Shown here piece after piece: positions 3,113 to 13,073 of a DNA stretch of 43,654 nucleotides. The translations under genes and the position numbers were made by a program. The stretch's first letter is position 1. The number at the start of each line of letters is the position of its first letter. The notes under the pieces were generated by a model, which was not told the origin of the DNA, ran no database searches, and saw nothing but the letters and a program-made list of their open reading frames with translations. Source of the stretch: Anaerolineaceae bacterium (GTDB taxonomy: Bacteria > Chloroflexota > Anaerolineae > Anaerolineales > Anaerolineaceae); NCBI GenBank assembly GCA_019429225.1, contig JAHYJK010000010.1:1-43654 (forward strand), written 5' to 3'.

Positions 3113-3817
3113 TCAATCGGTATTTATCAATTCGATTCTTTTCCTATGCAGGAATAGAAATCTTTTCCCTGTTGGAAAAATCAAAGTGAAAATACCTGTC
3201 ACCAAAAGTAAGATTCCAATCACATTGATTTGAGTTGGCCAGGCATTTGCCCAATTCTGACCACCTTCGGCAAAAATGTGGGTAGACGCTCCCCATATAG
3301 GAGCAGTCAGAACAGCAAATCCGCACAAGAGAAGGGTGAAGGCGGCAGCAGTTCTGTTGATGTCATCTGATTTTGTTCCGTCCAGGTGCAACTCTTGCCA
3401 GATACCAGGAATTTTGAAAATAGCAAAAAGGATAAGTGTGAGAACTGTTACATACACAACACCATCAGTAGGCATGGAACTTCCTCTTAATGATCTTGAA
3501 ACCACCATATGAATTACTCCAATAATAATACCTAAAATTAGAGAAATGATTGTTTCGCGGTAAGCTTGAGGCTTCTTTTTTATCAAACTTATCAAGGCCT
3601 TTACCATATAAACACCTATGGCTGTTGTCAGGAGAACAAATAAAATATACAACCAACTATAAGGCGCAATTACTGCCATTTTTGGACCAAAGCTTTCAGC
3701 AGCCACTGCTACACAGGTTGTCCCAATACCTGCCATCAGCGTGAATACAGATGTAATTCCCATTAAAATGATACCTACAACCCGTAACGTTTTTCCCCAC
3801 CATTTTGTTTTTGACAT
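3113..3817 (-). CDS. Uncharacterised six-helix membrane protein
   Basis: This 234-residue protein has about six hydrophobic segments, near residues 11-35, 50-75, 86-108, 118-138, 155-175 and 190-215. The C-terminal end is basic. I do not recognise a family, and there are no haem, metal or catalytic motifs that I can name. A strong AGGAGG ribosome site lies 6 bases before the ATG. It is the last gene of the leftward run that starts at the heme-copper-like gene, 38 bases after ctaB, and a hairpin follows it. The context suggests an accessory membrane subunit or assembly factor of the redox complex; this is inference from position only. Confidence 0.75.
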   Translation of the reverse strand: MSKTKWWGKTLRVVGIILMGITSVFTLMAGIGTTCVAVAAESFGPKMAVIAPYSWLYILFVLLTTAIGVYMVKALISLIKKKPQAYRETIISLILGIIIGVIHMVVSRSLRGSSMPTDGVVYVTVLTLILFAIFKIPGIWQELHLDGTKSDDINRTAAAFTLLLCGFAVLTAPIWGASTHIFAEGGQNWANAWPTQINVIGILLLVTGIFTLIFPTGKRFLFLHRKRIELINTD

Positions 3818-3855
3818 TGTATTCCTCCTTTGAAATTAATTTAATCAGCCACGAT

Positions 3856-4710
3856 TCAAATCATCATAAGTACCATGGCACATAACATGTATAAAGATGC
3901 GTACTTGAATAAACCAAAATTAAGTTTTTGGGACGGTCTGATCAGGCTCATCAATGCCAGTAGTATTAAGCCCAAGGAAAGCACAATCAGTAATCTTAAA
4001 TAACCGATTGTCATTCCAATGCCAATTGCAGCCAAACCCATTGTTACGGCTGCTAAAACGCTGGAAATCGCAATCATCAATCGTGTAAATGAAAAACTAT
4101 ACCGACTTGGGAAAGTTGGAATCCCAGCAGCTTGATAGTCATCATAATATCGCATGGAGAAGGTCATTATATGAGTAGGAATCCAAAACAGAATACCGAT
4201 TGCCAGCAATAATCCAACCCATTCAATGTATCCTACTGCCAGGGTTCTTCCAGCCAGGATAGGCATCCCCCCAGCTAATCCGCCCCAGATGATGGACCAG
4301 CAAGTTCTTCTTTTTAACCAGATCGTGTAAATAAACACATCCAAGAAGATCCCAAGAAATACAATCAATCCATAGAGTGGATCAATGAGCAGTGCTAATC
4401 CCACTCCCAGAATGGACAAGATAACTCCCGGGTTTAGGACTTCTCTCGACGAAATTACCCCTGATGCCAACGGCCTGTAACAGGTTCGTTTCATTTTTGC
4501 ATCAATATCGCGGTCATACCACATATTTAAGACGGTACTACCACTAATTGACAGAAAGAGACTCACAGCTATCGCCGTCAACAAGGGAATATTGAAAACT
4601 GGACATTTAAAACTCATGAACCCCGCTAAACCGGTCGCTAATAGCAGACCGGTTTGCGGGCTCTTGATCAACTTCCAATAGAGGGAGAATTTTTCAGTTA
4701 AAATTTTCAA
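3856..4710 (-). CDS. ctaB: Protohaem IX farnesyltransferase (haem O synthase)
   Basis: This is a 284-residue UbiA-superfamily prenyltransferase that adds farnesyl to haem B to make haem O for terminal oxidases. The prenyl-diphosphate/Mg site N-x3-D-x3-D is seen at N62, D66 and D70 (NMWYDRDID), followed by KRTCYRPLASG. WLKRRT at 131-136 and the second acidic site DDYQAAGIPTFP at 190-201 also fit CtaB/CyoE. Eight or nine hydrophobic helices are present. The only workable start is TTG at 4710, which has AAGGA 7 bases upstream. No ctaA (haem A synthase) is nearby, so haem O, or haem A made by a distant CtaA, would be the product used. It sits 29 bases after the FGE-like gene. Confidence 0.93.
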   Translation of the reverse strand: MKILTEKFSLYWKLIKSPQTGLLLATGLAGFMSFKCPVFNIPLLTAIAVSLFLSISGSTVLNMWYDRDIDAKMKRTCYRPLASGVISSREVLNPGVILSILGVGLALLIDPLYGLIVFLGIFLDVFIYTIWLKRRTCWSIIWGGLAGGMPILAGRTLAVGYIEWVGLLLAIGILFWIPTHIMTFSMRYYDDYQAAGIPTFPSRYSFSFTRLMIAISSVLAAVTMGLAAIGIGMTIGYLRLLIVLSLGLILLALMSLIRPSQKLNFGLFKYASLYMLCAMVLMMI

Positions 4711-4739
4711 TGTAAATCCTTAATGATTGATCTTTATGT

Positions 4740-5636
4740 TTATTTTACGCATCGAAAACCAAAAGCTGGGCTGGTGTATGTCGGGATTGAACTATTTCGA
4801 ACCCAGATACGTAAATAATTCTCATACACATCTTTGCTTCCACCGCGAAGATAGCGGTAATGTTGTTCTTCATAAACATTAGAAGTCCATTCCCAGACAT
4901 TTCCGGCCATATCATAAATCCCGTATGGGCTTGAGGAGTCTAATGTTACATAACCATCATATGTTTTTCCATTGTAAAATCCAACTGGCGTCGTGCGAGA
5001 ACCAAAGGAACTCATGTCTTCGAATGGATCCCGGCTGGTAATCAGGTTGGCATTGTTTCGTGCAATTGTTTCACCCCATGGGTAAGGGCGTGTATCTTCG
5101 CTACCCCTGGCTGCTTTTTCCCATTCCAATTCGGAAGGCAGTCGCCAGTCATAAAATTCGCAATAGGCCATTGCACCAAACCAGGATACCATTGTCATGG
5201 GGTGGTTTGCCCACATGGTTTGGGCGGAGAATGTTTGACCATCGTAGTCAAGTCGTAAAATAGGGTCATCCAATGGAATATGTATATAATCTCCCGCTGG
5301 AATTTCTTCTTCATGACGTCCATCATGAAATTCATCACCGGGATAGTATCCAACTACTTCATTCCCTTCAATTTTGATATATCCATCCTTCAATGCTTCA
5401 TTTAAGTATTCAGCAAATTGTTGGTTGGTAACATGGGTAACCATCATTTCATAATCATAATCAATTTTTGTTTCAAAGTTGAATTGTCCAGAGAAAAATT
5501 CTCCAGAAGGGATGAATGCCCATGTATTTGGGTCAATCCCCGTATCATAGACTGGAGCAGGTGCATTTATGTCGACAGGTTTACAGGCAGTCAGGATGAA
5601 AATAAAGGATATCAGGAGTAGAGTCAATTTTTTCAT
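4740..5636 (-). CDS. Formylglycine-generating-enzyme-like (SUMF1) lipoprotein
   Basis: This 298-residue exported lipoprotein has a signal peptide with lipobox LTAC (Cys18) and then a full FGE-sulfatase/C-type-lectin-like fold. Typical blocks are NHPMTMVSW (145-152), DWRLPSELEWEKAARG (163-178), YPWGE (185-189), GIYDMAGNVWEW (239-250), RGGS (264-267) and FGFRC near the end. True FGE enzymes carry a reactive cysteine pair just after RGGS; here that stretch is KDVYENYLRIWVR, with no cysteine. It is therefore probably not a sulfatase activator. Non-catalytic family members such as NirV are known beside nitrite reductase genes. Its ATG overlaps the stop of the heme-copper-like gene (TAATG), implying translational coupling. 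An insertion around 85-130 is unusually acidic. Confidence 0.88.
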   Translation of the reverse strand: MKKLTLLLISFIFILTACKPVDINAPAPVYDTGIDPNTWAFIPSGEFFSGQFNFETKIDYDYEMMVTHVTNQQFAEYLNEALKDGYIKIEGNEVVGYYPGDEFHDGRHEEEIPAGDYIHIPLDDPILRLDYDGQTFSAQTMWANHPMTMVSWFGAMAYCEFYDWRLPSELEWEKAARGSEDTRPYPWGETIARNNANLITSRDPFEDMSSFGSRTTPVGFYNGKTYDGYVTLDSSSPYGIYDMAGNVWEWTSNVYEEQHYRYLRGGSKDVYENYLRIWVRNSSIPTYTSPAFGFRCVK

Positions 5637-7117
5637 TATTTTTCCTCCACATAGGACTCTAATTTTTCATGCACTTCTTGTGACCACCTGCCATTCTTTT
5701 TAAATAGATCTATCAATCGCCAAACCATCAGTGCTGCGAGTGCGAGTAAAACCACAACCAATCCAATATCGCCCAAAAGATTAGTGACATTGACAACAGG
5801 TTGTTGGTATGCTTCCTCGATAAATAAACGTTTCATTTCGTATACTGTTACAGCGCCAAAGGCCAGATCAGAAAAGATAATAACGGACCATCCAAACCAT
5901 TGTCTTGCTTTTCCCTTTAACCCTGCTAAATCGGCGTAATACAAAAGTAAAATTGTGGCTGTCAGAGTAGCGAGGATATGCCAGTGACCCGTAAGGATTA
6001 ATTTTTCATCCATAAATGGCCAATTACGAAATATTTCATCCAGTTTAACAGCAACGAAAATTCCCACTCCACTGACTGTAAAATTCATGAAGACCATTTG
6101 CCAGGTAACACCGAATTTCAAAGGATCTCGGACTAATGCAGCTACGCCCTGGAAAAAATTACCTTTTTTGAGCCCTTTTTCTGCAAGGCCTTCTCGAATC
6201 AATTTGTTCCAGGAGAAAATTACCAGCAACAAAGCACCCAGCATAGCTATGGTTGAGCCACCATAAATGACGGCGTGGGCTACTCCTTCAAAGGGTACTA
6301 CTAACCAGGTTCCCATGGAAAGAACAATGGAACCCACGATCATTAATGGCATCGCAATTTTATGGAGTATTCCTTTGAAATCCATATATCGACAAATGAT
6401 CAACGTACAGGCAATCGCAATTAAAGCCAGCATAATGTGCAGGTGACCAATAATGGATTTTTGTAAAGTGGATTTAATGGGTTCTCGTACTACATTTTCT
6501 GCCAGAAATGTGAAAAAACCATTACCATAAAATGAGCCTGGAACTGCACCGAAAAGTGCTGACGCCAGCGTTACTATGGAGACTGAGAAAAATGCAATTC
6601 TTTCCAGATTAAATCCGGTTTTTGTATGTGCGTATTCTTTATTCTTAACCTTATATTCCTCTCGCCAGGGCCACAATGCATAGGCTAGTGAGCTTCCAGC
6701 GAAGAAAATTAGTGTCAATCCTGCAATATAAATCCCATGCATGATCCAACTGGTTCCCCAATAGGCAAAAGGTAACCCACCAAAAATTGCAGCCAGATAT
6801 CCAAAAGTGATTGTGCTGTTGATTTGGACGCGTTGATTTTCTTTCATGGCGATTAAATCTGTGATCATGTATGTTTCAATAGCGATAACTGCCATTGCGA
6901 TAGTGTGATACAGAATAATCAAACGTCCTTCTCTTTCAGCTTCGACGAGATCAATCCCAAAAGTTTTAACAATAACTGATTTGACACCCAAATCTGCCAT
7001 AGGTCCGGATAATGATCCAAAGAATGCAGAGATTATCGCACATAGGGCGATTGCGACGAGAATCAGACCTTTGGTGGATGTAAAGAGATAATTAAATCGG
7101 GTTTTTAATGCCAGCAT
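5636..7117 (-). CDS. Divergent heme-copper-oxidase-like 12-helix membrane protein
   Basis: This 493-residue protein has about twelve membrane helices. Three homologous-looking blocks recur every 153-154 residues, each with histidine at the start of the second helix of a four-helix unit: YHTIAM (H71), GHLHIM (H225, H227) and GHWHIL (H378, H380). This matches the three-fold pseudo-symmetry of heme-copper oxidase subunit I. There helix II and helix X histidines hold the low-spin haem, the other helix X histidine holds the active haem, and helix VI carries one CuB ligand. The helix VI HPE-x-x motif and the helix VII His-His pair are absent, so a normal CuB centre is not expected. It leads an operon with an FGE-like lipoprotein and ctaB. 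AAGGAG precedes the ATG. It could be a divergent NO reductase, oxidase or haem-only quinol/cytochrome module; the family assignment is by pattern only. Confidence 0.7.
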   Translation of the reverse strand: MLALKTRFNYLFTSTKGLILVAIALCAIISAFFGSLSGPMADLGVKSVIVKTFGIDLVEAEREGRLIILYHTIAMAVIAIETYMITDLIAMKENQRVQINSTITFGYLAAIFGGLPFAYWGTSWIMHGIYIAGLTLIFFAGSSLAYALWPWREEYKVKNKEYAHTKTGFNLERIAFFSVSIVTLASALFGAVPGSFYGNGFFTFLAENVVREPIKSTLQKSIIGHLHIMLALIAIACTLIICRYMDFKGILHKIAMPLMIVGSIVLSMGTWLVVPFEGVAHAVIYGGSTIAMLGALLLVIFSWNKLIREGLAEKGLKKGNFFQGVAALVRDPLKFGVTWQMVFMNFTVSGVGIFVAVKLDEIFRNWPFMDEKLILTGHWHILATLTATILLLYYADLAGLKGKARQWFGWSVIIFSDLAFGAVTVYEMKRLFIEEAYQQPVVNVTNLLGDIGLVVVLLALAALMVWRLIDLFKKNGRWSQEVHEKLESYVEEK

Positions 7118-7147
7118 TTATGCTCCTTTAAAAAAAATTTTAAAAAA

Positions 7148-7176
7148 ATTATATTGTGTAATTTTGCACATGTTAA
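7148..7176 (-). promoter_or_regulatory. Sigma-70-type promoter of the heme-copper-like operon
   Basis: Read leftwards: -35 TTAACA (7176-7171), a 17-base spacer, and -10 TATAAT (7153-7148). The start of transcription should be near 7141, about 24 bases before the ATG. The spacing is ideal and the -10 is perfect. Confidence 0.65.
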
Positions 7177-7196
7177 CACGTTGATGATTAAAAGTC

Positions 7197-7212
7197 ATTA
7201 ACAAAAGTTAAT
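7197..7212. promoter_or_regulatory. Perfect inverted repeat, likely Crp/Fnr-type operator
   Basis: ATTAAC-AAAA-GTTAAT is a perfect palindrome with the 5-4-5 geometry of Crp/Fnr-family sites. Its centre is about 62-64 bases upstream of the predicted transcription start of the heme-copper-like operon, which is the class I activator position. The half-site (TTAAC) differs from the TTGAC form at 8207 and 8708. Confidence 0.5.
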
Positions 7213-7370
7213 ATCAGCGTGAAATCGATTGATAAATCTTTCCATTCAGACAATTTTTGAATTGACCGTATTAAACAGTAAGGCGAGAATTATGTAGCAT
7301 TTCTATGCTTTTCAGTCTCACCTCACCTGATCGATGTTAATACTTTTCTAAAACTTGATAGGCTAATTTT

Positions 7371-8147
7371 TCAATCAATCGCTTTTGTCCATTTTTGCCA
7401 TAAATTCGGGATAACGAGAATAATTACCATTACCAGACTGGAAATTGGGGCTAATGAAAACAACGAGAAACGACCCAATTCCTGAGCTGTAATGACGGCT
7501 AACGGAATACCAACAATCAGCTCTATAACTCCTGCTAGCAAACCAACTGGTATCATCCAATTCTTGGGTTTTGTTAAAATACCAAAAGTCACAACTGCCC
7601 ATCCAATCATTGCCACCCAATGCAGACTGACCACCAGATAAAATATTGGGGTTCCTACTGTGATAATTCGACTGGTGCTTGATACACCATTCATGAAGCA
7701 GAAAATGTAGGTAACACCAGTTCCCATGCCTAATAAAATTCTACTCCACGGGATTTCTCCAACTTTCCAAAGGAAAATAAAGTAGAAGAGAATATAAGGA
7801 AAAAACAACATGAAATAAACGGGTGGTAAGCTGGCTGCCATAAATGGGATGTTAATAAAAAAGCTGGCTAATAATGCTAAAATGATCCCAATGACTGACA
7901 GGGTATAAGCCCAGTTTTTCTTTACAAAAAAGCCATAGGCACTGACCAGGAAAAAGGCTGATGCAAGAAATCCCACATCACCCAAACCTGGATGGATATA
8001 TTTCAATAAGATCTCACAACCCGGCTCAGCTGATTCTGCAGACATGCCTGCTGCATACCACTGGAAGAACAGAACAAAATGACCAACGATACCAATGAGA
8101 GCGGCGATAAGCGCCATTATTCCACCTAAAACATTATTTTTCTTCAT
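7371..8147 (-). CDS. Uncharacterised polytopic membrane protein
   Basis: This protein has 258 residues counted from the ATG at 8147. A longer reading from ATG 8159 exists, but GGAGG (8157-8153) lies inside that extension, 5 bases before 8147, so the internal start is preferred. About eight hydrophobic segments span nearly the whole protein. A short loop with one cysteine (AEPGCEILLKYIHPGLGD) follows the first helix. I do not recognise the family. It has its own upstream inverted repeat (8207-8222) of the same type found beside the Crp/Fnr gene, and it lies between the CxxCH lipoprotein and the heme-copper-like operon. A membrane partner of that system is a reasonable inference, not a demonstrated one. 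Confidence 0.75.
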   Translation of the reverse strand: MKKNNVLGGIMALIAALIGIVGHFVLFFQWYAAGMSAESAEPGCEILLKYIHPGLGDVGFLASAFFLVSAYGFFVKKNWAYTLSVIGIILALLASFFINIPFMAASLPPVYFMLFFPYILFYFIFLWKVGEIPWSRILLGMGTGVTYIFCFMNGVSSTSRIITVGTPIFYLVVSLHWVAMIGWAVVTFGILTKPKNWMIPVGLLAGVIELIVGIPLAVITAQELGRFSLFSLAPISSLVMVIILVIPNLWQKWTKAID

Positions 8148-8152
8148 TTTTT

Positions 8153-8157
8153 CCTCC
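8153..8157 (-). promoter_or_regulatory. Ribosome binding site that sets the start at 8147
   Basis: GGAGG followed by five A residues precedes the ATG at 8147. The upstream ATG at 8159 overlaps this site and has no ribosome site of its own. Confidence 0.7.
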
Positions 8158-8206
8158 ATAATTTTTTAATCTCTTGTAATAAATATCACAAACGACAGTT
8201 TTCAAC

Positions 8207-8222
8207 TTTGACTTAAAGCAAA
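8207..8222. promoter_or_regulatory. Crp/Fnr-type operator upstream of the 258-residue membrane protein
   Basis: TTTGACTTAAAGCAAA is a 5-4-5 imperfect palindrome (TTGAC / AGCAA) that differs at one base from the site at 8708-8723. Read leftwards, a TATTTA -10-like hexamer (8185-8180) follows 21 bases later. This puts the site centre near -41.5, the class II activator position. Confidence 0.55.
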
Positions 8223-8233
8223 ACCTGCGCAAG

Positions 8234-8644
8234 TCATCTTGGTTTTTCATCACTCATGTGGCAAGAATTGCATCCTTTGTAATAGGCTGTGTTATTGTGA
8301 GCCGCCACGTAAATGATTGCATCAGGCTCAACAGTAAAGTTACAATCATCCAGGAAATTCGATTTACCTTCCCATGCATAAATTTCAATGTCACAACCTA
8401 CATAGACCAATCCTTCCAGATGGTTGTTGCACAGTTGACCTGAAACAACATGGTCAAAATCCATCATTTTTCTTTTGATTTCGATTTGTTGGGGATTGAG
8501 TTGCTGTTCTGTTATAGATGGAAATGGATTGGTGCGTTCTCGATAGGTAATCATTCCAGGCGCACACAAAGAACGAGCATCCATACAGGCGCTCAACAAA
8601 ACCATGAAAAAGAGTGTGAAGATGAGAAGTACTTTGTTTTTCAT
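8234..8644 (-). CDS. Small c-type haem lipoprotein with C-terminal CxxCH
   Basis: This 136-residue exported lipoprotein has a hydrophobic signal ending in lipobox LLSAC (Cys20). A single haem c motif, CNSCH (125-129), lies just eight residues from the C-terminus and is followed by Met130. Four further cysteines (27, 72, 84, 101) could form two disulfides. A single CxxCH at the extreme C-terminus is the layout of cytochrome c', c'-beta and P460 proteins rather than class I cytochromes c. Several of those bind NO; whether this protein belongs to them is inference. AAGGA precedes the ATG. It is divergent from the Crp/Fnr gene, with a palindrome between them, and probably serves the neighbouring membrane redox proteins outside the cell membrane. 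Confidence 0.8.
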   Translation of the reverse strand: MKNKVLLIFTLFFMVLLSACMDARSLCAPGMITYRERTNPFPSITEQQLNPQQIEIKRKMMDFDHVVSGQLCNNHLEGLVYVGCDIEIYAWEGKSNFLDDCNFTVEPDAIIYVAAHNNTAYYKGCNSCHMSDEKPR

Positions 8645-8707
8645 ATGAATTCCTTAACTGAAAATTTAAGATTATTCAAATTTGTAATAGATTTCACATA
8701 CAATTTC

Positions 8708-8723
8708 TTTGACTTAACGCAAA
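8708..8723. promoter_or_regulatory. Crp/Fnr-type operator between the cytochrome and regulator genes
   Basis: TTTGACTTAACGCAAA is 15 of 16 bases identical to the site at 8207-8222. Leftwards, a TACAAA hexamer begins 21 bases away (site centre near -41.5 for the cytochrome gene). Rightwards, TATAAG (8751-8756) and TATAGT (8766-8771) are possible -10 elements for the regulator itself. Confidence 0.55.
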
Positions 8724-8788
8724 TAAACGAGTTTACTCATTTCAGGAAGCTATAAGATTTTCTGCTATAGTTAATCTAGGAGAAATTA

Positions 8789-9472
8789 ATGAAAGATTTT
8801 GCATTGTTATTTGACCAGAATCCAGTATTTGCAGCTTTGTCGGAAGATAAAAAGGATTTAGTTATGAAGGAGGCAATCTCCAAACAATTCTCAAAAGGGC
8901 AGTTTGTGACTTTAGATGGAGATATCTGGCCATACATGTTTTTAATTACGAAAGGAAGGATTCATGCAATAAAGAGTTCGATGGAAGGTCGTAGTCTGGT
9001 GGTAACGACTTTTGATGCAGGTGATATTTTCTGGGGACTTGCATTCTTTTATGAAACAATGCCGATGCTAGTTTCTCTGGAGGTTGCTGAGAATACCAGT
9101 ATCATGCTATGGTCAGCGCGGAGTTTGATACCCATTCTTAAAAGCGAAGGTACAGCAGCGTGGGAATTATCACGATTAATGGTGTATAAAATGATGCGGG
9201 CAAGTGAAATTCTGGAAGAGATGACTTTTCAGCCTGTAGCTGGCCGTTTAGCAAAATTATTAATGGATACAGTCCGTGATCAAGAACATGAACCGGTTAC
9301 CAGAAGTTTGACTTTAGATGAAATGGCAGCCAGAATTGGTTCCACACGAGAAATGGTGTGTCGTTTCCTGCATCGCTTCGCAGATGATGGAATAATTGAT
9401 ATCACCCGCACAGAATTCCGTGTGATGGATACTAAGAGATTGACGAAAGTAGCCACCAATTCGAAAGGTTGA
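8789..9472 (+). CDS. Crp/Fnr family transcriptional regulator
   Basis: This 227-residue regulator has a cyclic-nucleotide-binding-type beta-roll (about 10-115), a long dimerisation helix (about 120-155) and a winged helix-turn-helix (174-205: TLDEMAARIGSTREMVCRF). The recognition helix keeps the R-E-x-x-x-R pattern of Crp (R187, E188, R192). There is no N-terminal cysteine cluster; the only cysteine is C191 in the recognition helix, so Fnr-type iron-sulfur oxygen sensing is unlikely. A Dnr-like haem/NO sensor or a ligand-independent Crp type are alternatives. AGGAGAAATTA precedes the ATG. It is divergent from the CxxCH lipoprotein and is the obvious candidate to bind the three repeats at 7197, 8207 and 8708. 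Confidence 0.9.
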   Translation: MKDFALLFDQNPVFAALSEDKKDLVMKEAISKQFSKGQFVTLDGDIWPYMFLITKGRIHAIKSSMEGRSLVVTTFDAGDIFWGLAFFYETMPMLVSLEVAENTSIMLWSARSLIPILKSEGTAAWELSRLMVYKMMRASEILEEMTFQPVAGRLAKLLMDTVRDQEHEPVTRSLTLDEMAARIGSTREMVCRFLHRFADDGIIDITRTEFRVMDTKRLTKVATNSKG

Positions 9473-9627
9473 TATTAACATCTGTCTAACAAATGAAGAA
9501 GTGAAATTGTTCTGATTCACTGAATGTGATCATCCATTGGTTTTTCGGGAGTAACTACAAGGATTCTAATGACATTTTTTATTGATAAGCTAGTATGTTT
9601 TGGCGAGTTTCATTTATAATTTTTAGC

Positions 9628-10524
9628 ATGCGAAAATTTTTTTCATCTATTACTGTTGGTTTGTTCTTATTACTTTTTTTATTATCTGGTTGTCAAAAAA
9701 ATATCAATGGGGAACAGTCAGGTAATCAAAATGTGACCGATTATTATTATTTGGAAAATAAAGGGTCTGATACGATGGTTAACCTGGCCTTATATTGGGC
9801 AGAGGAATATCAGAAGCTACATCCAGAAGTTCGAATTTCCGTTACAGGTGGAGGCAGTGGGACAGGAATTTCTTCACTCATTAATAATACGGTCGACCTG
9901 GCAAATGCATCCCGACAAATCAAATTGGAAGAGATAGAAAGCGCAAATAAAAACGGGGTGGACCCGATTGAATATGTTGTCGCAAGAGATGCAATTGCTG
10001 TGATTGTTCATCCTGGTAATCCAATTAATCGATTAACATTACAGGAAGTATCAGATATTTACACAGGAAAAATTGAAAACTGGATTCAATTAGGAGGTGA
10101 AGACAGACCAATTGTGCGCCTATCCCGAGAAACAAATTCCGGAACCCATGTCTACTTTCTTGAAGAAGTTATTCGCCTGGGAAATGCCGAAGATAAAACA
10201 ATTTTCTCCGCAAACACCTTATTGCTATCCTCATCAGAAGGTATCATTGCGGAAGTTCGGGCAAATCGAAATGCAATTGGTTATGATGGATTAGGATATA
10301 TCACTGAAGAAGTTAAAGTGCTTGCCATTGCCAGAGAAGAAGGGGCAGATTATATTTTCCCAACATTGAACACAGTCAATGAGAACCTTTATGCCATTTC
10401 CAGAGATTTATTCATCTATGCCCCAGGAACACCACCAATATTTGTTCAGGATTACCTGGACTGGATCATGACATCAGAAGGTCAAAAAATTGTTACTGAT
10501 TTGGGTTTCATTCCAGTCAAATAA
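9628..10524 (+). CDS. pstS: Phosphate ABC transporter, substrate-binding lipoprotein
   Basis: This is the phosphate-binding lipoprotein of the high-affinity Pst importer, anchored outside the membrane. An in-frame ATG at 9595 exists, but the ATG at 9628 gives a classic signal peptide (MRKFF, hydrophobic core, lipobox LLSGC with Cys22); neither start has a clear ribosome site. Phosphate-pocket segments are GSDT (46-49), GGGSGTG and SRETNSGTH. Length 298 residues is normal for the family. pstC follows after 8 bases and pstA, pstB after that, so the four form one operon. I could not identify a convincing Pho box in the gap after the Crp/Fnr gene. Confidence 0.93.
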   Translation: MRKFFSSITVGLFLLLFLLSGCQKNINGEQSGNQNVTDYYYLENKGSDTMVNLALYWAEEYQKLHPEVRISVTGGGSGTGISSLINNTVDLANASRQIKLEEIESANKNGVDPIEYVVARDAIAVIVHPGNPINRLTLQEVSDIYTGKIENWIQLGGEDRPIVRLSRETNSGTHVYFLEEVIRLGNAEDKTIFSANTLLLSSSEGIIAEVRANRNAIGYDGLGYITEEVKVLAIAREEGADYIFPTLNTVNENLYAISRDLFIYAPGTPPIFVQDYLDWIMTSEGQKIVTDLGFIPVK

Positions 10525-10532
10525 GGAAAAGT

Positions 10533-11432
10533 ATGAAGGAAAATCAAACCAGGAATTTTGAAAAAATAATCACCCGAACCATTCAATTTTCGGGGTATTC
10601 TTCTATCCTGTTTGTCTTACTCATTTTATTTTTTCTATTATCAGAAGGTACCCCTGCATTATTTGATGTGAAATTATCACAACTATTCTCGGAGCGGTGG
10701 TATCCTATCGAGGATTACTTCGGGATACTTCCATTAATATTAGGCTCTATGGTGGTTACTTTAGGAGCTTCATTAGTTGCTGTTCCTTTTGGTATTCTGA
10801 CAGCTGTTTACATCGCTGAAATTGCCCCAAAATGGCTGCAGGAAATTATGAAACCGTTGGTAGAGTTATTGGCAGGTTTGCCAAGTGTTGTTCTGGGTTT
10901 TCTGGGTATCCTGGTGGTTTCACCTTTTCTGCGTGACACATTGAATTTACCCACCGGGCTCACTGCTCTGACAGGATCCTTATTGTTAGGAGGTATTGCC
11001 ATCCCAACCATTGTTTCCATTTCGGAAGATGCACTCAATAATGTGCCGGATTCGTATCGGCATGGTTCACTGGCTTTAGGATTGACCCGTTGGCAAACAA
11101 TCTGGGGAGTGACAGTACCAGCTGCAAAATCAGGTATATTGATGGCTGTGATGCTGGGTGTGGGAAGAACGATTGGAGAAACGATGACCGTCATGATGGT
11201 CACCGGAAATGCTCCTATTATGCCAACATCTTTACAGGCGTTGTTTATGCCCATTCGTACAATGACCGCGACAATTGCTTCCGAAATGGGTGAGGTTGCC
11301 ACAGGTAGCCCACATTATCATGTGTTGTTCTTCATTGGTATGGTTTTATTTTTATTCACCTTACTGGTCAATGTAATTGCATCTAATATCAGTTCCCGGA
11401 AATTAAAACGATCTGAGAGAATCTTATCCTGA
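10533..11432 (+). CDS. pstC: Phosphate ABC transporter permease PstC
   Basis: This is a 299-residue inner-membrane permease with about six helices and one half of the Pst phosphate channel. The cytoplasmic ABC-contact (EAA) loop is visible as EDALNNVPDSYRHGSLALG followed by TRWQTIWGVTVP. The pattern GRTIGETMTVMMVTGN near the last third is typical of PstC. AAGGAAAAGT precedes the ATG, and it sits directly between pstS and pstA. No fusion or truncation is apparent. Confidence 0.93.
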   Translation: MKENQTRNFEKIITRTIQFSGYSSILFVLLILFFLLSEGTPALFDVKLSQLFSERWYPIEDYFGILPLILGSMVVTLGASLVAVPFGILTAVYIAEIAPKWLQEIMKPLVELLAGLPSVVLGFLGILVVSPFLRDTLNLPTGLTALTGSLLLGGIAIPTIVSISEDALNNVPDSYRHGSLALGLTRWQTIWGVTVPAAKSGILMAVMLGVGRTIGETMTVMMVTGNAPIMPTSLQALFMPIRTMTATIASEMGEVATGSPHYHVLFFIGMVLFLFTLLVNVIASNISSRKLKRSERILS

Positions 11433-11440
11433 GAGAATTT

Positions 11441-12316
11441 ATGCAGCAGACCGCAAAGAAATCAAATGTTGTTAAACAGCTTCGGATTGAAAAACTGGGT
11501 TTTTCGTTGTTAACAATACTATCCATTGCAACGGTCATCCCAATCATTGCCGTTGTCATCTATATCATTTATCTGGGAGCACCAGCTATCTCCTGGGAGT
11601 TTGTCTCCGCCATGCCGAGTGACGGCATGAGAGCAGGTGGGATCTGGCCGGCAATTGTAGGAACTTTCTATTTAACGATCGGAACAGCTATATTCTCTGT
11701 CCCATTAGGCATTGCAGCAGCGATTTATTTATCGGAGTATGCCCCGGTCAACAAAGTTACGCAAGCCATTCGCTTGGCGATCATTAATTTGGCTGGAATT
11801 CCTTCCGTTGTGTATGGTTTATTTGGTTTGGGATTATTTGTTATTTTTCTGAATTTCGGAACCAGTATTCTATCAGCGTCTCTTACGTTATCTATTATGA
11901 CACTGCCCGTGATTATCAGCACCACAGAAGAAGCACTGCGTGCGGTCCCACAATCTTTCAGGGTTGTGAGTGTTTCATTAGGGGCTACTAAATGGCAAAC
12001 GATCTGGCGATTGGTATTACCTCAGGCAATCCCCGGTATTTTAACCGGTGTTGTTCTCGGGTTGGAACGAGCTGCAGGCGAAACAGCTCCCATTTTATTC
12101 ACAGGGGCTGCTTTTTTCCTTCCCAGATTGCCCAATTCTCCCCTGGACGCGACGATGGCGTTGCCCTATCATTTATTTGTGATTTCCACCCAGGTGCCGG
12201 GAATGCCAATCCAGATTCAATATGGAACAGTATTGGTGCTGCTGGTGTTTGTTTTGATCATGAATATTATTGTTACAGTGATTCGCTCCCGTGCCCGGGC
12301 GAAAAGGCAGTGGTAA
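11441..12316 (+). CDS. pstA: Phosphate ABC transporter permease PstA
   Basis: This 291-residue second permease of the Pst importer has about six membrane helices. The EAA-type loop reads EEALRAVPQSFRVVSVSLGATKWQTIW, and ERAAGETAPILFTGAAFF near the end is the PstA hallmark. It starts 8 bases after pstC and is followed one base later by the preferred pstB start. The first 25 residues are polar and positively charged, consistent with a cytoplasmic N-terminus. Confidence 0.93.
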   Translation: MQQTAKKSNVVKQLRIEKLGFSLLTILSIATVIPIIAVVIYIIYLGAPAISWEFVSAMPSDGMRAGGIWPAIVGTFYLTIGTAIFSVPLGIAAAIYLSEYAPVNKVTQAIRLAIINLAGIPSVVYGLFGLGLFVIFLNFGTSILSASLTLSIMTLPVIISTTEEALRAVPQSFRVVSVSLGATKWQTIWRLVLPQAIPGILTGVVLGLERAAGETAPILFTGAAFFLPRLPNSPLDATMALPYHLFVISTQVPGMPIQIQYGTVLVLLVFVLIMNIIVTVIRSRARAKRQW

Positions 12317-12317
12317 C

Positions 12318-13073
12318 ATGGATAAAATAATCGTTGAAAATCTTTCTATTACCTATTCGGATGGGGTCGAATCCTTGTTTGATATTAATCTCAGGATCCC
12401 CATCAACCAGATTACTGCTTTAATTGGTCCTTCTGGTGGGGGCAAATCAACTCTTCTGCGTGTGTTGAATCGATTAAATGATCTGGCAGATGTATCAAAG
12501 ACAACTGGAAAAGTATTAATTGATGGGATCGACGTACTTGACCCAACTCTGGATGTAATCGCTTTACGACGAAAAGTTGGAATTGTATTTTCTCGACCAT
12601 TACCACTTCCCCTTTCTATTTACCAGAATGTCTCTTACGGGCTGGAATTAATGGGTGAGAAACGAAAAATAGTATTAGATAATGCAGTTGAACGTGCCTT
12701 GCGATTGGCCGAATTATGGGATGAATTAAAAGAACGGTTACACGATCCAGCCAATTCTATTTCCGGAGGTCAACAACAGCGTTTATGCCTGGCACGCACG
12801 TTATCATTACAACCTGAAATCATTATGCTGGATGAACCGACATCAGCGCTTGATCCTGTCTCCACTGCAAAAATTGAAACATCTCTGATTGAGCTAAAGA
12901 AAGATTTTACGGTCATCATTGCTCCACATAACACACAACAAGCTGGACGAATCGCTGACCAGGTTGCTTTTTTCCTCCAGGGAAAATTAATAGAATTTTC
13001 CAGTGCTGAGGAAATCTTCACCCGACCTAAAGATAAAAAAACCCAGGATTATATTTCTGGAAAATTTGGATAA
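12318..13073 (+). CDS. pstB: Phosphate ABC transporter ATP-binding protein PstB
   Basis: This is the ATPase that powers PstCA. The ATG at 12318 is preferred over 12291, which would overlap pstA by 26 bases and add a non-homologous leader; 251 residues is the usual length. Walker A is GPSGGGKS (37-44), the signature is SISGGQQQR (147-155), Walker B is IIMLDEP (168-174) and the H-loop histidine is H204. The Q-loop position, normally VFQ, is VFS here (Ser92, in VGIVFSRPLPLP). No phoU follows; the next gene is a dCMP deaminase after about 100 bases. That gap holds a loose 8-bp inverted repeat (13076-13113). Confidence 0.94.
   Translation: MDKIIVENLSITYSDGVESLFDINLRIPINQITALIGPSGGGKSTLLRVLNRLNDLADVSKTTGKVLIDGIDVLDPTLDVIALRRKVGIVFSRPLPLPLSIYQNVSYGLELMGEKRKIVLDNAVERALRLAELWDELKERLHDPANSISGGQQQRLCLARTLSLQPEIIMLDEPTSALDPVSTAKIETSLIELKKDFTVIIAPHNTQQAGRIADQVAFFLQGKLIEFSSAEEIFTRPKDKKTQDYISGKFG

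Follow-up and report, generated by a model that had tools for sequence, protein, structure and literature searches.

We analyse here the window, namely the whole 43,654-nucleotide contig JAHYJK010000010.1 (C246) of an Anaerolineaceae bacterium, and in particular its gene cluster at positions 3113-9472. The central gene of this cluster, g4 (5636-7117, minus strand), encodes a 493-residue protein, which by its predicted structure represents a clade of the heme-copper superfamily that has no name so far, its fold being known and its family not. The gene is followed by g3, encoding an FGE-like lipoprotein, and by g2, encoding a haem O synthase (CtaB); these three form the conserved core of an operon, and the other genes are lineage-specific accessories. 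The best explanation at present, which we hold only tentatively, is that this heme-copper clade, with its private haem O synthase and its FGE-like partner, handles nitric oxide (NO). The genome to which the window belongs has 4.2 Mb and is 98% complete, and its relatives are metagenome-assembled genomes (MAGs) of Anaerolineaceae. No earlier description of the operon is found in the open literature searched, subscription literature being outside that search.

The 12-helix heme-copper oxidase (HCO) fold extends over the length of g4 in its AlphaFold model (pLDDT 80, pTM 0.86). VIA-align matches the model to CcoN 8smr (Z 23.0, rmsd 4.0, 394 aligned residues), to ba3 4g70 (Z 20.6) and to the nitric oxide reductase (NOR) 4xyd, a cNOR (Z 20.4), with identities of about 9%, and the top matches of Foldseek are likewise HCOs, with weak E-values (best 2e-3) and a probability of 1.0. 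At the level of sequence, no match of g4 is found in Pfam (PF00115 included, at E 1) or NCBIfam, a 50-sequence profile of g4 retrieves nothing from PDB sequences at E 10, and hhalign against single qNOR, CcoN and HCO546 sequences gives nothing significant. When the whole genome is searched with PF00115, the sole match is an aa3-type gene on contig C94, and g4 is not matched. By sequence, membership of g4 in a known oxidase or NOR family is therefore rejected, and the preliminary description of this locus, for which such membership of the 493-residue protein was a refuting condition, is not refuted on this point. As a side observation, tandem pairs of proteins of about 140 residues and four helices, with weak partial PF00115 matches, occur at L120:3424-4246, L121:3083-3917 and L122:3795-4635; each such protein resembles one repeat unit of the heme-copper fold.

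The alignment of 83 g4 sequences, including two divergent members recovered by profile, has seven invariant histidines: H71 in transmembrane helix (TM) 2, H127 in TM4, H225 and H227 in TM6, H281 in TM8, and H378 and H380 in TM10. Since H71, H378 and H380 are invariant, the haem ligands of the superfamily are kept in TM2 and TM10. The helix-VII HH pair that binds CuB is absent, TM7 (250-271) having no conserved histidine; together with the predicted fold, this bears out the former reading of g4 as a CuB-less, 12-helix, oxidase-like protein. Neither TM6 (217-244) nor TM7 has a conserved tyrosine that could be the active-site Tyr, and the FeB ligands of NORs (three His and a Glu) are absent from the alignment. 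At the place where many oxidases have GHPEVY, TM6 of g4 carries GHLH. When the second four-helix unit is compared with the third by hhalign, GH225LH227 pairs with GH378WH380 (probability 91, E 1e-6, in one comparison), and H127 falls opposite H281 when units one and two are aligned globally, a non-significant result. From the known topology of the superfamily we infer three sets of ligands, one for each pore of the fold. H71 and H380 in pore C would bind the low-spin haem; in pore B, H378 would bind the second haem (haem O), with H227 and H281 facing it in the place of CuB; and H225 and H127 would line pore A, the third one, where the members of the superfamily known so far hold nothing.

The core is shown by gene neighbourhoods. 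In a scan with one genome per species, we find 179 relatives of g4, and the best 80 loci are retained. These are mainly from Anaerolineae; further carriers are MAGs deposited as Aminicenantes, Neomarinimicrobiota, KSB1, Spirochaetes, Ignavibacteria, Desulfuromonadaceae and Dysgonamonadaceae (misbinning is possible), and there is a cultured carrier, Thermanaerothrix daxensis GNS-1 (L038). Among the 80 loci, 79 have g3, which in 78 lies immediately 3' of g4 on the same strand; CtaB then follows in 71, several of the remaining loci ending at contig edges. The pairwise distances of the g4, g3 and g2 proteins are also correlated (r 0.47-0.63, Mantel p < 0.001). As for the accessories, roughly half of the loci have g1 and roughly a third a g5-like gene, while g6 is present at 12-13 loci and an orthologue of g7 at 20 of 80. 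Thus the proposal of the preliminary description that all seven genes make one unit stands in part: the core genes do co-occur elsewhere, g3 being directly after g4 in 78 of the 79 loci that have it, while equal membership of the seven is not upheld. In addition, a membrane protein of about 205 residues (cluster c3) is present at 53 g4 loci, with no copy found in the window, and FmdE-like lipoproteins, sometimes with the domain doubled, recur at g4 loci (L154:1-1030, L080:2692-4272 and L099:1185-1934). Another membrane protein, of about 150 residues (cluster c9), occurs at 11 g4 loci, and a homologue (L113:301-789) is located near a qNOR-like gene in G132.

In the window, all seven open reading frames proposed earlier are confirmed with their coordinates. 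The order on the minus strand, 5' to 3', is g6, g5, g4, g3, g2 and g1, with g7 divergent on the plus strand. The start of g3 (4740-5636) overlaps the stop codon of g4, and g2 (3856-4710) and g1 (3113-3817) follow with spacing within 40 bases. The last gene of the operon, g1, encodes a membrane protein of 234 residues with conserved Cys and His among relatives, and g5 (7371-8159) encodes one of 262 residues, for which an ATG a few codons downstream may be the real start. Searches with profiles identify g2, g3 and g7, in line with what had been proposed for them, and give no credible match in Pfam or NCBIfam for g1, g4, g5 and g6. Among the longer open reading frames of the window, inspected by eye and without a profile search, no COX2, NorC, CcoO or CcoP is noticed, as had been remarked before. 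Downstream of g7, positions 9595-13073 read as a phosphate-type ABC transporter set (a binding lipoprotein, two permeases and an ATPase); this set adjoins the g4 locus in the nearest relatives only (L021, L022 and L093) and looks unrelated.

The assignment of g2 as a haem O synthase is sustained, since it scores 211.5 bits with TIGR01473 (cut-off 210.3). The genome also has an aa3-type oxidase, on contig C94, whose operon includes a CtaA-CtaB fusion; therefore the CtaB of the window is a second, operon-specific copy. Four other genomes with the g4 operon (G053, G104, G125 and G138) show no PF00115 protein and no CtaA, although two of them are less than 90% complete, so that an oxidase could be missed; in all four, the protein that best matches the UbiA family is the CtaB encoded at the g4 operon. 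Because these genomes show no other heme-copper protein and no CtaA, the haem O made by the CtaB of the operon is most likely destined for g4.

The FGE domain of g3 has SUMF2 as its best PDB match (E 5e-21). Since both active-site cysteines of FGE are replaced in the alignment, g3 is probably not an FGE but a structural or binding partner, which agrees with its description as a cysteine-less FGE-like lipoprotein. The other lipoprotein, g6 (8234-8644, minus strand; 136 residues), ends in CNSCH and had been taken for a haem lipoprotein, an assignment that now appears doubtful. Among the 13 family members, the C-terminal motif is CxxCH in seven and CSCH in six, so that a cytochrome is no longer a safe claim; invariant are C72, C84, C101, H116, C125, C128 and H129. 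Haem c is no likelier here than disulphides or a metal site formed by Cys and His. The AlphaFold model of g6 is unusable (pLDDT 48).

The regulator g7 (8789-9472, plus strand), divergent from g6, scores above the cut-offs of PF00027 and PF13545 and belongs to the Crp/Fnr family. A pattern search gives two regulatory palindromes, TTTGACTTAACGCAAA between g7 and g6 (8708-8723) and TTTGACTTAAAGCAAA upstream of g5 (8207-8222), neither occurring again in the window. Across the 4.2 Mb genome, the pattern TTTGMNTTAANKCAAA is matched exactly twice, both times at the g4 locus, and the same is true of G142 and G145. Among the 20 loci with a g7 orthologue, 14 have a site upstream of the Crp gene, with 2.88 sites per kb against 0.03 elsewhere. 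In this lineage, g7 thus has a dedicated palindrome at the g4 locus, as the preliminary description had supposed in calling the regulator dedicated. In relatives, the palindrome is centred, as judged by eye, some 31 bases upstream of an extended -10 (TGTGnTATAnT), a spacing characteristic of class II activation by Crp/Fnr proteins. A second candidate Crp site, TTGTG...TCACA, is set aside, because by eye it overlaps and resembles this extended -10. Directly upstream of g4, a sigma-70-like promoter, TTAACA-17-TATAAT, is found on the minus strand at 7148-7176 (11 of 12 consensus positions, in a scan that as a whole is not above chance). Probably, then, the minus strand is read as three transcription units, g6 and g5 each with a palindrome and g4 with its own sigma-70-like promoter. 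The same palindrome is also seen in G140 upstream of an FmdE-like lipoprotein gene, away from the g4 locus.

Three lines favour the handling of NO, namely genome content, neighbourhoods and the regulator motif. Regarding genome content, NirS is present in all eight genomes of the genus, and none of the eight has a NOR-like PF00115 protein, in a search that did not extend to flavodiiron proteins of the window's own genome; the PF00115 proteins of the genus are aa3-type by score and length, to which G141 adds a CcoN and G140 some small fragments. The window's genome also has no hcp. Most C1-C2-NirS Chloroflexi have no nor, strain 44-23 being shown among them (Schwartz et al. 2022, PMC8756737), and this strain carries the g4 operon (L023). 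In tests of co-occurrence across 147 genomes of the family, which are not corrected for kinship, g4 goes with NirS or NrfA (odds ratio (OR) 14, p 8e-8), also when only genomes with cytochrome bd are counted (OR 5.1, p 0.007), and avoids Hcp (OR 0.08). Regarding neighbourhoods, RIC, NrfHA, DUF1858 or NnrS-like genes stand at single g4 loci, and in L141 (7360-11350) a divergent g4 homologue, with no FGE or CtaB gene alongside, shares an apparent operon with a DUF438-hemerythrin-PAS sensor and a NorV-like flavodiiron protein. In L140, another divergent g4 homologue comes immediately after a divergent PF00115 protein. Several candidate links are rejected: RIC is no general partner of g4 (1 of 147 family genomes), tight chromosomal linkage of nirS to g4 is not found, NirS being on other contigs, and the NO-related neighbours, each at 1-4 of about 95 loci with no background set, are not taken as an enrichment and serve as support only. 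Regarding the regulator, the exact palindrome of L053 fits the HcpR motif TTGACnnnnGTCAA, the other loci having TTTGCcTTAAgGCAAA; HcpR is a predicted regulator of NO-stress genes, and its Synechocystis orthologue is divergent from norB (PMC1274295).

The divergent PF00115 protein just mentioned, of about 545 residues, is found at L140:9316-10944, L111:12340-14408 and L118:1181-3249, and a cupredoxin-like subunit of about 138 residues accompanies it in L111, L115 and L118. The L140 copy has the helix-VII HH (WSHHLL), but GLDMVADGNVLIY and no His at the expected place in helix VI. This protein may belong to one of the less common classes of NOR.

If NO is handled, g4 would, as a guess, reduce or bind it in the pocket of haem O, drawing electrons from quinol or an extracytoplasmic donor, and would thereby protect cells that make or meet NO and have no recognised NOR. 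Its extracytoplasmic FGE-like partner is probably g3, and the dedicated Crp/Fnr regulator in this lineage is g7. The former suggestion of a respiratory or nitrosative-stress module is kept as a hypothesis. Several results weigh against the handling of NO. The association of g4 with bd (OR 12.6) and with COX1 (OR 9.2) is equally strong as that with NirS or NrfA, nine genomes have NirS without g4, and twelve have g4 without NirS. The recognition helix of g7, STREMVCR, is CRP-like and does not predict the palindrome found, such helices being associated with TGTGA (PMC1274295). Moreover, as neither the FeB ligands of NORs nor the CuB ligands of oxidases are present, no known catalytic mechanism applies. 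Owing to the equal strength of bd and COX1, the uncorrected kinship, the NirS mismatches and the rarity of NO-related neighbours, a role linked to oxygen and a role as electron carrier are real rivals. For the same protein we also consider a stronger proposal, namely a new enzyme family with His in all three pores and a third cofactor, which reduces NO without a known CuB or FeB site and closes the nirS-without-nor gap of Chloroflexota; this seems to us quite improbable.

The oxygen-linked role, that of a haem-O oxygen reductase or scavenger in anaerobes or microaerobes meeting air, is plausible if doubtful. It is suggested by the near confinement of g4 to genomes that have cytochrome bd (21 of 24 g4 genomes) and its frequent company of an aa3 oxidase (16 of 24), and by the dedicated CtaB, which is typical of oxygen reductases; the flavodiiron and hemerythrin neighbours of divergent g4 members could also serve oxygen. 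However, g4 has neither the three-His CuB site nor the active-site Tyr of known oxygen reductases, no subunit II gene accompanies it, and the association with NirS or NrfA holds within bd-positive genomes. The absence of both classical sets of active-site ligands is accounted for if g4 is a non-catalytic haem protein, whose seven histidines would bind two or three bis-His haems for transmembrane electron transfer between quinol and extracytoplasmic partners such as g3 and g6, or for gas sensing. All invariant histidines can be paired without a catalytic metal, the HxH of TM6 is the repeat counterpart of that of TM10, and extracytoplasmic lipoproteins are conserved partners. Yet a dedicated haem O synthase would be unusual for a simple electron carrier, and g6, the supposed haem partner, has no conserved CxxCH; we regard this explanation, too, as plausible if doubtful. 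Very unlikely is that g4 is no enzyme itself and serves the bd or aa3 oxidases of the cell as a maturation or haem-delivery factor: CtaB in the operon, the co-occurrence of g4 with bd and COX1, and the resemblance of g6 to a Cys/His lipoprotein would fit, but no other HCO or CtaA is detected in four g4 genomes, the aa3 operon already has its CtaA-CtaB fusion, and cytochrome bd does not use haem O.

A heme-copper fold without a binuclear centre, kept with its own CtaB across several phyla, would allow a test of what haem pockets alone can do, and of how this three-fold pseudosymmetric fold evolved. Should g4 handle NO, the removal of NO is underestimated in denitrification surveys that rely on the nor families known so far, and the nirS-carrying Chloroflexota without nor become a testable puzzle.

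Among known systems, g4 resembles CcoN of the cbb3 oxidases (C-family) in the fold from end to end (VIA Z 22-23), the His in TM2 and the HxH in TM10, while the identity is about 9%, the CuB HH pair and the Tyr are absent, and TM6 has an HxH. C-family enzymes use haem b, and unlike cbb3 the g4 operon has its own CtaB and no CcoO or CcoP. With the cNOR/qNOR enzymes and the cupredoxin NORs (eNOR, sNOR and gNOR), g4 shares the fold (4xyd, Z 20.4), the single large subunit and, for its genomes, the company of nitrite reductases; it differs in having no FeB His triad and Glu, no PF00115 match, and neither NorC, the N-terminal domain of qNOR nor a cupredoxin subunit. NnrS, which acts in NO resistance, is a 12-TM haem/copper protein, rich in His and met in N-oxide contexts. 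Both NnrS and g4 are thus His-rich membrane proteins with 12 helices, but g4 has no match to PF05940 at E 1, and the fold matches of its model are HCOs. The regulator g7 is like HcpR in that its gene is divergent from its target and that the palindrome resembles wyTTGACnnnnGTCAArw, while the consensus here is TTTGCcTTAAgGCAAA, the recognition helix is CRP-like and the genome has no hcp. Finally, g3 shares its domain with SUMF2 and other FGE-fold proteins, including the GldK/PorK lipoproteins and NirV, and is distinguished by the absent Cys pair, by being an exported lipoprotein, and by its tie to a heme-copper-like gene rather than to nirK.

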